Below, piece by piece: positions 29,719 to 32,493 of a stretch of DNA of 33,499 nt. How positions within the stretch are numbered: the first letter of the stretch is position 1; each line of letters starts with the position of its first letter. The notes beneath the pieces were generated by a model. The model searched no databases. It was not told the origin of the DNA and was given only the letters and a program-made list of their open reading frames with translations. Origin of the DNA: Persephonella sp. (GTDB lineage: Bacteria > Aquificota > Aquificia > Aquificales > Hydrogenothermaceae); contig JALSNI010000050.1 of NCBI GenBank assembly GCA_026987075.1, positions 1 through 33,499 of the forward strand, read 5' to 3'. Made by a program: the position numbers and the translations under genes.

Positions 29719-31513
29719 CAATTTCTCTTAAATTACTGTTTTTGTGGCTTGAAAAATAAGATGTATTTGAAGATATTTTATAGCTTTTGTTCTTGCTTTT
29801 CACTCTTAGTATGTAACTTTGTATTCCACTTTCTTCAATAATATGGGGTATGTCTGTTTTTAATACCTTGATTATTTCTGATGAATAACTGTTTGCCATT
29901 ATCATCATATCTAATCGATAGCCATTGTATCTTGCCTTTAGACCAATGTCCCCTATTTTCATAGAAAAGGTTAAATTCCTGCTGTTAGGTTCTTGTGATT
30001 TTTCTTCTCCAGTATAGTCAGTCTTATGTTGCTCAAACCCTCCATCTGAGTCATCTTTTGTTTGATAGAAGGTGTCTTTTTCACTGACTGATATTTCTGT
30101 AGATACGCGACTTTCTGATGCTATTTTCTTGTTCTCACCATCGTTATATTCTACTTTTTCTTTCTTACCTTCTGTGAAGACAATGTGCTGTGAGTTTTCA
30201 TTTATTTTTTCATCTATTTTGATGTCTGTGCTGTCTACTACATCTTCTTTTTTACCAGCTTTTTCTTCCTTTATGCTTTTGTGAAAATCTTTTTTTGTCT
30301 TATGCTCTACAATTTTTATTTTTTCAGAAACTTTTTTTCTAAAAAACATCTCTACTTTCTCATCTGTTCTTTTAGTATCTGCTTTTTCTGAGTTTAAAAT
30401 CTCACCTTTGTTATCAAGATGCTGTGAGAACACTTTGTGGTCATTAGATACTTTTCTGTTGGTCTTGTGTATGCTATCAGCTATGAATTTGGTTACAGTG
30501 CTTCCTGTTGAATGCTCTTTAGGCTGAATATCAACTGCTGACTTGTCTATAATAAATCTATCTTTTTCTTCTGCAAAGGCATTTTTTTCTTTATGGAGTT
30601 TCTGTCCTTTTCCATAGGTAAATTCCTGAGTTAGCAACTTTTTGTCAGGTTTTAAATAGGTCTTTACACTTTTTAATTTTGAATAATAGGCGTTTCCAAC
30701 TAAAAAATTATCTCCTGAATAGGAAAGCTTACCATTAATAGAATGACTTACATCTTTTGATAAAACACGGGATTTTTTCTCTAAAGCTTCAGAGGTAAAA
30801 CCTGTTTCACCTTTGGGAAGAAAATCTGTTTCTGAAACTTTAGAGGTTAACAGGGTTGGAGGTTTTCCCTGTATGGAAGTTATATTGGTATACTTTTGTG
30901 CAGAAAGGATTTTTGTCTTTTTTTCTGATTTTTTTTCATCTTTTATTTCTTGTGTTATTACTCCCTGGCTTTCCGTAATTTTCTGAGAAGTCTGTTTTAA
31001 AGTATATCTTGATTCCTCTGGAGAGAGAATGCGAGAGGACTTTTTTAGAGGAGTATGGAGCAGACTTTTAGAGTTATGTTTTAGACTGGATTTTACTGGT
31101 AGTTTTTCTTTATCAGTATGAGTTTCTATAAAATAGGTTTTGTTTCTTGACTGAAGGTGAGAAACTGTTTTATGTGAAAAAGAAAAAACAGGTTGTTGGC
31201 TTACCAGAACAGATAATTTAGGTTTTATAAGCTCTTCTCTATGCTGGACACTATCTTGATAAGAATATAGATAAGACTTGACCTTCCCAGTTTTTTTTGT
31301 TCTTATCTCTTTTTTGAACTCTTTCTCATTTTTATAAAAACTGTCAAATAGATGTTTATCTGCTGATTTATCTTTTGAAGGGGTTTTTTTCTCTTCTGAT
31401 AGGGATACTACAGACATTAATAACTTGTCAAAATCTGCTTTTTTGTTAATTTTCTTCCCGCTACTACCCTTAACATTAAGCTGTATCTGAAATAAAATCT
31501 TTGCTAAATTCAT
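29705..31513 (-). CDS. fliK: FliK-like flagellar hook-length control protein
   Basis: About 602 residues from the ATG at 31513, which has AAGGTG six nt before it (an ATG at 31546 adds MSKHNLNLRCI but has no ribosome site). No signal peptide or membrane helix. Residues about 15-515 are low-complexity, Lys/Ser/Thr/Glu-rich and almost without folded signatures, as in FliK N-terminal rulers. The last ~90 residues resemble the FliK C-terminal switch domain: 'FSMKIGDIGLKARYNGYRLD', then 'VLKTDIPHIIEESGIQSYIL'. FliK measures the hook and triggers FlhB switching; flgD, flgE and flhB are in the same run and no other candidate is. Call rests on layout and context. Confidence 0.6.
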   Translation of the reverse strand: MNLAKILFQIQLNVKGSSGKKINKKADFDKLLMSVVSLSEEKKTPSKDKSADKHLFDSFYKNEKEFKKEIRTKKTGKVKSYLYSYQDSVQHREELIKPKLSVLVSQQPVFSFSHKTVSHLQSRNKTYFIETHTDKEKLPVKSSLKHNSKSLLHTPLKKSSRILSPEESRYTLKQTSQKITESQGVITQEIKDEKKSEKKTKILSAQKYTNITSIQGKPPTLLTSKVSETDFLPKGETGFTSEALEKKSRVLSKDVSHSINGKLSYSGDNFLVGNAYYSKLKSVKTYLKPDKKLLTQEFTYGKGQKLHKEKNAFAEEKDRFIIDKSAVDIQPKEHSTGSTVTKFIADSIHKTNRKVSNDHKVFSQHLDNKGEILNSEKADTKRTDEKVEMFFRKKVSEKIKIVEHKTKKDFHKSIKEEKAGKKEDVVDSTDIKIDEKINENSQHIVFTEGKKEKVEYNDGENKKIASESRVSTEISVSEKDTFYQTKDDSDGGFEQHKTDYTGEEKSQEPNSRNLTFSMKIGDIGLKARYNGYRLDMMIMANSYSSEIIKVLKTDIPHIIEESGIQSYILRVKSKNKSYKISSNTSYFSSHKNSNLREIDVKV

Positions 31514-31587
31514 AATACACCTTAAATTTAAATTATGTTTCGACATATTGCAAAATTTTATTAAAAAAATTAAGATTTATAACTAAG

Positions 31588-31896
31588 GTGAGCAAGATAG
31601 GATTTTTTATTATCTTTCTTATAATTGTTTTGAGTACTGGTGGTTTAGGTTATCTGCTGTATGACAGGATTTCAAAAAATCAGTATAGGTATTACAAAGG
31701 AGAGATAAGAAAAGTCCCTAAATATTACAAGGCAAATCCTGCTAATGCACCTAACTACTATAAAGGTTCTATACAGAAAGTTCCCAACTACTATAAAAAA
31801 GACATAAAAGACTTGCCTAATTATTACAAACCTAAATCTTCTTCTACACCTTCTGATAGGGCTTCTAAACTGAGAAGTTTAAAAGAAAATTGGTAG
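31588..31896 (+). CDS. Small membrane-anchored protein with five YYK repeats, unknown function
   Basis: I recognise no family. 102 residues from a GTG start at 31588 (no ATG available; ribosome site unclear). Seen: a membrane helix or uncleaved signal (about residues 4-25, 'IGFFIIFLIIVLSTGGLGYL'), then five Tyr-Tyr-Lys units starting at residues 35, 46, 57, 68 and 79, exactly 11 apart. Four of them read Pro-(Lys/Asn)-Tyr-Tyr-Lys, separated by six variable residues, then a Ser/Thr-rich basic tail. Codons of the repeats differ (TAT TAC versus TAC TAT; AAA versus AAG), which argues for an old, protein-level repeat. It is the only plus-strand gene inside the flagellar run, and its last 18 nt overlap the end of the sigma gene. 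Confidence 0.7.
   Translation: MSKIGFFIIFLIIVLSTGGLGYLLYDRISKNQYRYYKGEIRKVPKYYKANPANAPNYYKGSIQKVPNYYKKDIKDLPNYYKPKSSSTPSDRASKLRSLKENW
31693..31830 (+). repeat. In-gene 33-nt tandem repeat encoding the YYK units
   Basis: Five units of 33 nt (11 codons) cover codons 36-81. The conserved part of each encodes Tyr-Tyr-Lys with a preceding Pro-Asn or Pro-Lys in four units; the six residues between are variable but mostly small or charged. DNA identity is limited, so this is not a recent slippage array. Confidence 0.75.
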
Positions 31897-32493
31897 ATTT
31901 TTTAACTTTTTTATAGCTTCATGTTTTATCTGGGAAACCCTTGAAACAGAGATGTCTAACTCCTGAGCAACTGTTTTCAAGTCTTTTTCTTCAAAGTAAA
32001 GCATTTGGAGAACTTTTTTTTCTTTTTCATTTAAAAGCTCTATAGCTTCTAAAAGTTTTTCTTTCTGGTCTTCTTTTATTACTTCTTCTTCAGGGGTATT
32101 TTTGTCTGATACAAGTGTATCAACAATTTTTAGACTTTCATCAGATGAAAGAGCTTTTTCAATACTTACCATCACTGCAGTGTTAGAAAGGGGAACAGGT
32201 TTACCCTCTTCTATAGGAGGTTCTTTTTTTATTTTGTCTCTTATTGTTCTTGGAACAATGTCTAAACTCCTCAGGTAGTCTAAAATTTCTCCTCTAATTT
32301 TTATGTATGCGTAAGTGGAAAATTTTGCCTTGTCCTTGTCATATCTTTCTATAGCTTTAATAAGACCTATAACTCCCACATTAACAAGGTCGTCAAACTC
32401 TATGTCCCCTTTTGGCAACCTGTAGTAAATTTTACTTGCTACTTTTTTAACAAGGGGAAGATTTTCAAGGATTAAACGGTCTCTTTCTTTCAT
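31879..32493 (-). CDS. fliA: Flagellar sigma factor of the FliA/WhiG type with reduced sigma-3 domain
   Basis: Alternative sigma factor for late flagellar genes, 204 residues, whereas FliA proteins usually have about 235-260. Seen: sigma-2 (about 5-80) with 'FDDLVNVGVIGLIKAIERYD' and 'FSTYAYIKIRGEILDYLRSL', the start of sigma-3 ('VPRTIRDKIKK', 80-90), then only about 18 residues of Pro/Glu-rich linker, then 'SIEKAL' and sigma-4 (about 145-200) with 'TVAQELDISVSRVSQIKHEA'. The usual second half of sigma-3, with its 'GREPTDEEVAxxLG'-like stretch, is missing in frame, with no sign of a frameshift. Follows flhG by two bases. Confidence 0.87.
   Translation of the reverse strand: MKERDRLILENLPLVKKVASKIYYRLPKGDIEFDDLVNVGVIGLIKAIERYDKDKAKFSTYAYIKIRGEILDYLRSLDIVPRTIRDKIKKEPPIEEGKPVPLSNTAVMVSIEKALSSDESLKIVDTLVSDKNTPEEEVIKEDQKEKLLEAIELLNEKEKKVLQMLYFEEKDLKTVAQELDISVSRVSQIKHEAIKKLKNLPIFF

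Follow-up and report, generated by a model that had tools for sequence, protein, structure and literature searches.

Comparison with TonB, TolA and other known proteins

The closest described systems are TonB and TolA. Both have an N-terminal membrane helix, an extended, proline-spaced and charged periplasmic region, and a C-terminal binding element (PMC7098700, PMC12204202). The proline-rich region of TonB is believed to reach across the periplasm as an extended polyproline-II structure (PMC7098700), and the spacers of TonB and TolA vary widely in length (PMC12204202).

Here we describe a small protein with a similar outline, which we call the YYK protein for its repeated Tyr-Tyr-Lys. Its gene lies in a stretch of 33,499 nucleotides from Persephonella sp. 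(contig JALSNI010000050.1 of assembly GCA_026987075.1), which was analyzed as a whole and which we refer to as the window. Like TonB and TolA, the YYK protein has a predicted membrane helix, a proline-spaced charged chain, and a C-terminal element. When we looked for an extended region of the TonB/TolA type, we found 6-13% proline past the helix, and the AlphaFold2 model has little structure there, at low confidence. But the YYK protein lacks a globular domain of about 100 residues at its C-terminus (just 22-28 residues follow the last Tyr pair, and there is no match in Pfam); the SHLS motif is absent from the helix in all of the aligned YYK sequences; and there are no ExbBD or TolQR neighbors at the gene. 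Also, the YYK protein has 11-residue aromatic units that are fixed in number, while the spacers of TonB and TolA are variable.

Two other kinds of proteins are similar in some respects. Rz-type spanins are small inner-membrane-anchored proteins whose length could bridge the periplasm, and the YYK protein is also small, apparently membrane-anchored, and of a suitable length. However, there is no lysis gene or prophage nearby, and just one member matches a spanin in PHROGs, weakly (E = 0.12). Plant extensins, which are secreted, are basic chains spaced by prolines and contain Tyr-Tyr-Lys motifs, and two members of the YYK family match the Pfam model Extensin_1 (best E = 0.0012). But extensins are eukaryotic, have Ser-Hyp4 blocks, and lack a membrane helix. 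This match is most likely compositional and is not evidence of homology.

The YYK gene is real and under selection

The YYK gene is at 31588..31896 on the + strand and encodes 102 amino acids. The window's copy begins with GTG and has a poor ribosome-binding site upstream, whereas the start codon in the homologues is ATG. We found the gene in 18 genomes from four genera, all within one family of the hot-vent bacteria Aquificota, so there are 17 homologues in genomes other than the window's. In a search of the 41 genomes of this family, 11 of the 14 genomes of the window's genus (Persephonella) had a clear homologue (61-99% identity). Of the three genomes of this genus with no match, two have a completeness of just 55% and 70%; G021, the third, is at 74%. 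Members from other genera, which are firm by profile, are present in 4 of 6 genomes of genus g2, in 2 of 3 genomes of genus g3, and in the one genome of genus g7. A profile built from 17 sequences did not add any further genus among 136 genomes of Aquificota. Several genera of the family do not have the gene, so its role is dispensable or replaceable.

Within the genus, dN/dS (by the Nei-Gojobori method) was mostly 0.07-0.25, with one pair at 0.35. For the closest pairs, whose synonymous sites are the least saturated, it was 0.07-0.17. These ratios are well below 1, so the protein is under purifying selection, as the original prediction had inferred from codon differences between the repeats.

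Five units and a C-terminal motif

In the window's protein, an N-terminal hydrophobic helix (residues 6-24, 31603..31659, mean hydropathy of 2.4) precedes the repeats. This agrees with the single membrane helix that had been predicted, as does a helix at residues 3-30 in the AlphaFold2 model, albeit at low confidence. Tyr-Tyr-Lys then occurs at residues 35, 46, 57, 68, and 79, with an exact period of 11, just as described originally. The units are YYKGEIRKVPK (residues 35-45, 31690..31722), YYKANPANAPN (residues 46-56, 31723..31755), YYKGSIQKVPN (residues 57-67, 31756..31788), YYKKDIKDLPN (residues 68-78, 31789..31821), and YYKPKSSSTPS (residues 79-89, 31822..31854), which is repeat-like only in its Tyr-Tyr-Lys start. 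The residues before the five Tyr pairs are QYR, VPK, APN, VPN, and LPN, so four of them (units 2-5) are indeed preceded by Pro-Asn or Pro-Lys. (When residues 26-102 were shuffled 200,000 times, three or more YYK appeared in 137 cases, the maximum was four, and five were never seen.) The codons for Tyr-Tyr-Lys in units 1 to 5 are TATTACAAA, TATTACAAG, TACTATAAA, TACTATAAA, and TATTACAAA, and any two of the 33-nucleotide units differ at 11-23 positions, which rules out a recent duplication of the DNA.

All 18 proteins have the same plan: an N-terminal hydrophobic helix is followed by five units, and a short hydrophilic linker then leads to a C-terminal motif. None has more or fewer than five units, down to about 29% identity. 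The first position of the Tyr pair is aromatic in all 90 units (87 Tyr and 3 Phe), the second is Tyr in 83 (otherwise Ile or Val), and the third is Lys or Arg in 84. Pro is found two residues before the pair in 63 of the 90 units and Asn one residue before it in 59. From the first unit to the last, the Tyr pairs are 44 residues apart, or 45 in three proteins from g2 with one 12-residue unit, so the exact period holds for the window's protein but is not universal. Past the membrane helix, the net charge is +10 to +15 in every homologue.

The C-terminal motif was overlooked by the original prediction. In the window's protein it is LRSLKENW (residues 95-102, 31870..31893). The pattern [LMI]xx[LIV]xxx[WFL], with hydrophobic residues at i and i+3 and an aromatic residue or Leu at i+7, is present in 18/18 proteins and ends 0-2 residues from the C-terminus. 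AlphaFold2 places a low-confidence helix at residues 90-100. Besides the N-terminal helix, it has one other helix, at residues 67-74; the mean pLDDT is 56.6, and the repeats have little regular structure and mostly very low confidence. The model was built from just five sequences. An extended chain would agree with this model but is not demonstrated by it.

Searches for known relatives

The original prediction knew of no family with this layout, and we did not find a convincing relative in Pfam, NCBIfam, PHROGs, PDB sequences, plasmids, or phages. The best scores for the window's protein were 11 bits in Pfam (cut-offs are 22-27) and 13.3 in NCBIfam (cut-off of 71.1), and the other members had only weak E-values against these two databases (0.0012 at best). 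Matches of any member to PHROGs were also weak (best E = 0.016), as was the best hit of a profile search of PDB sequences (E = 0.09, as expected by chance). There was no tblastn match in 50,697 records of phage genomes, and no relative was found in plasmid records or in scans of IMG/VR. (Matches in IMG/VR with three YYK at a period of 11 have another layout, and any open frames there are short and partly in repetitive DNA.) A profile search of 391 genomes, many of them from outside the phylum, added two chance matches and nothing else. We considered the weak profile matches in G106 and G304 (both TPR-like), G377 (UvrC-like), and G074 to be unrelated proteins. Within the window's own genome, the pattern YYK-x8-YYK matches the YYK gene alone, and a 379-amino-acid frame on contig C53, which matches weakly (E = 0.002), was not accepted as a paralogue.

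In Aquificaceae, the pattern YYK-x8-YYK picks up another small basic protein, one that contains YYKLPINVPSVYYKYKK. This protein is conserved across L048-L066, has about 65-80 amino acids, and begins with MKETRIxKYIKSLIRNHKY.

Judging by these comparisons, the YYK protein seems to be undescribed and restricted to this lineage. Beyond the searched genomes, we scanned 84,980 species with patterns that reach close relatives only, so distant relatives may exist elsewhere. The family adds an undescribed and well-conserved small protein to a deep-branching phylum of thermophilic diderms. Three things stand out: a unit count that never varies, the C-terminal motif, and a gene that moves. That the number of units is constant at about 29% identity, while the gene has been relocated, implies that selection keeps the protein itself.

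A proposed role in the cell envelope

We tentatively propose, as the best available explanation, that the YYK protein is an extended, basic peptide in the periplasm that is anchored in the inner membrane. The hydrophobic helix would be held in the inner membrane with its N-terminus inside and its C-terminus outside, and the roughly 75 residues in the periplasm would form a chain that is extended, spaced by prolines, and strongly basic. With its five Tyr-Tyr-Lys units, this chain could then make five equivalent, in-register contacts with an anionic or carbohydrate polymer of the envelope or with the extended surface of a partner, while the C-terminal eight residues, as an amphipathic helix, might dock onto a second partner. 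The outline would be like that of the spacer part of TonB or TolA, but without a globular domain and with the binding units fixed in number. Because the number of units is fixed and the spacers of TonB and TolA are variable, the YYK protein is unlikely to be a mere spacer, and in-register binding is favored over distance. The number of units is also a direct handle for telling a spacer from multivalent binding. We did not find a partner gene linked to the YYK gene.

The proposed orientation is favored by the proteins from g3, whose N-terminal tails have five or six positive residues and a charge of +6 or +7 (including the amine), versus +2 after the helix, and by those from g2 and g7, which start with MK or MKK as in signal anchors. 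In the window's genus, the charges of the N-terminal tail and the C-terminal flank are nearly equal and do not decide.

The nearest rival is that the YYK protein is an accessory subunit of a membrane complex, with one membrane helix and an extended arm, rich in Pro and Tyr, that lies over the larger complex. Each YYK unit would fill one groove on its surface, and the C-terminal helix would clamp the end. We view this as a real possibility: the size, the single membrane helix, the fixed length, and the conserved terminal helix would all suit a subunit that staples a complex together, and strong conservation with no predicted fold would suit binding to a protein surface. However, no complex is conserved among the neighbors, and close genera that do not have the gene presumably share the main respiratory complexes.

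A bolder version of our preferred explanation, which we find rather doubtful, is that the protein is a lineage-specific binding rod in the periplasm. The five units would form a non-globular surface of fixed length, running from the inner membrane to a second envelope partner that is held by the C-terminal helix. If so, this would be an undescribed type of tether, whose gene has been repeatedly relocated.

Regularly spaced aromatic pairs share their logic, but not their sequence, with other aromatic-repeat glycan binders. The YYK units recall this spacing, and their most constrained positions are the aromatic and basic residues, so stacking of the aromatic residues, together with charge, might hold the units to a polysaccharide such as peptidoglycan or lipopolysaccharide, much as the original prediction suggested. 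Even so, no glycan-binding family in Pfam or NCBIfam was matched and genes for the cell wall or polysaccharides are not linked to the YYK gene. A role as a glycan binder is somewhat improbable.

It is unlikely that the protein has the reverse topology, with the N-terminus outside and the C-terminus inside, in which a basic, Tyr- and Lys-containing tail would face the cytoplasm and, at the membrane, bind ribosomes, nucleic acid, or acidic lipid. The strong positive charge of the tail would suit this, as would the flank of the helix in the window's genus, which is as positive on the C-terminal side as on the N-terminal side. But the positive residues before the helix in g3 and the signal-anchor-like starts of the others argue against it, and nucleic-acid-binding families were not matched convincingly.

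The flagellar neighborhood is incidental

In the window, as the original prediction stated, and also across its genus, the YYK gene lies antisense between fliA (31879-32493 on the - strand), which encodes the flagellar sigma factor, and a fliK-like gene that is also on the opposite strand. The YYK gene and fliA converge, and their 3' ends overlap by 18 bp (31879..31896). The likely start of the fliK-like gene is the ATG at 31513 (MNLAKIL...), which agrees with the homologues, rather than the start of the open reading frame at 31546. This leaves a divergent gap at 31514..31587. A stretch in this gap that is conserved in the genus, TTTCG[AT]...GCAAAA...TTAATTAA at 31538-31562, is probably part of the promoter of the fliK-like gene, the YYK gene, or both. 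We did not detect a regulon around this stretch, as sites in the genome were not in excess of a control pattern, and in a sigma-70 scan, sites were no more frequent than in shuffled sequences.

Beyond the window's genus, the YYK gene has other neighbors (whose names we assigned from sequence by eye). In g3 and g7, it is between a CBS-type tRNA nucleotidyltransferase and a pair of genes for an OmpR-type response regulator and a histidine kinase, all in the same direction; in three genomes of g2, it is behind a TlyC/CorC-like gene; and in G001, it is near hypB. So, four positions are known. At two of these, the YYK gene evidently came between genes that were already adjacent, because we see empty sites: fliA and the fliK-like gene are adjacent, with no YYK gene between them, in g2, g5, g6, g7, and g9, and the response regulator gene comes right after that of the nucleotidyltransferase in g2, in one member of the window's genus (G018), and in the distant g9. 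In a tree of FliA and the tRNA nucleotidyltransferase, the carriers are on two main branches, with genera that do not have the gene (g4, g5, and g8) between them. This pattern could come from descent in which the gene was lost and relocated or from some transfer, and the data do not separate these scenarios.

We therefore dropped the flagellar role that the neighborhood had suggested, as the position is not conserved. An accessory flagellar protein of the fliA/fliK locus would account for the arrangement in the genus, and all 18 carriers have a match to FliA, while g8, which does not, has no YYK gene. But the gene is on the opposite strand, it is elsewhere in three genera, many FliA-positive genomes do not have it, and the correlation with FliA reflects few independent lineages and too few events to argue from. 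Overall, a flagellar role is very improbable, and position alone is an unsafe basis for proposing one. Because the layout was kept while the gene moved around the genome, a role in the envelope is probable instead. As for a chance open frame, the weak start site of the window's copy is the sole point in its favor, and the 17 homologues across four genera and dN/dS well below 1 exclude it for practical purposes, independently of the shuffles. The original prediction had named a lack of homologues or of purifying selection as signs of such a frame, and neither was the case.

We also note two differences in flagellar genes within the family. The absence of a match to FliA from g8 (G030-G032) suggests that this genus has lost the flagellar sigma factor, and perhaps flagella as well. 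In G021, the genes beside fliA are not the YYK gene and fliK but one that is methyl-accepting chemotaxis-like and one that is PolX-like, and this genome branches far from the rest of its genus in the tree of FliA and the tRNA nucleotidyltransferase.
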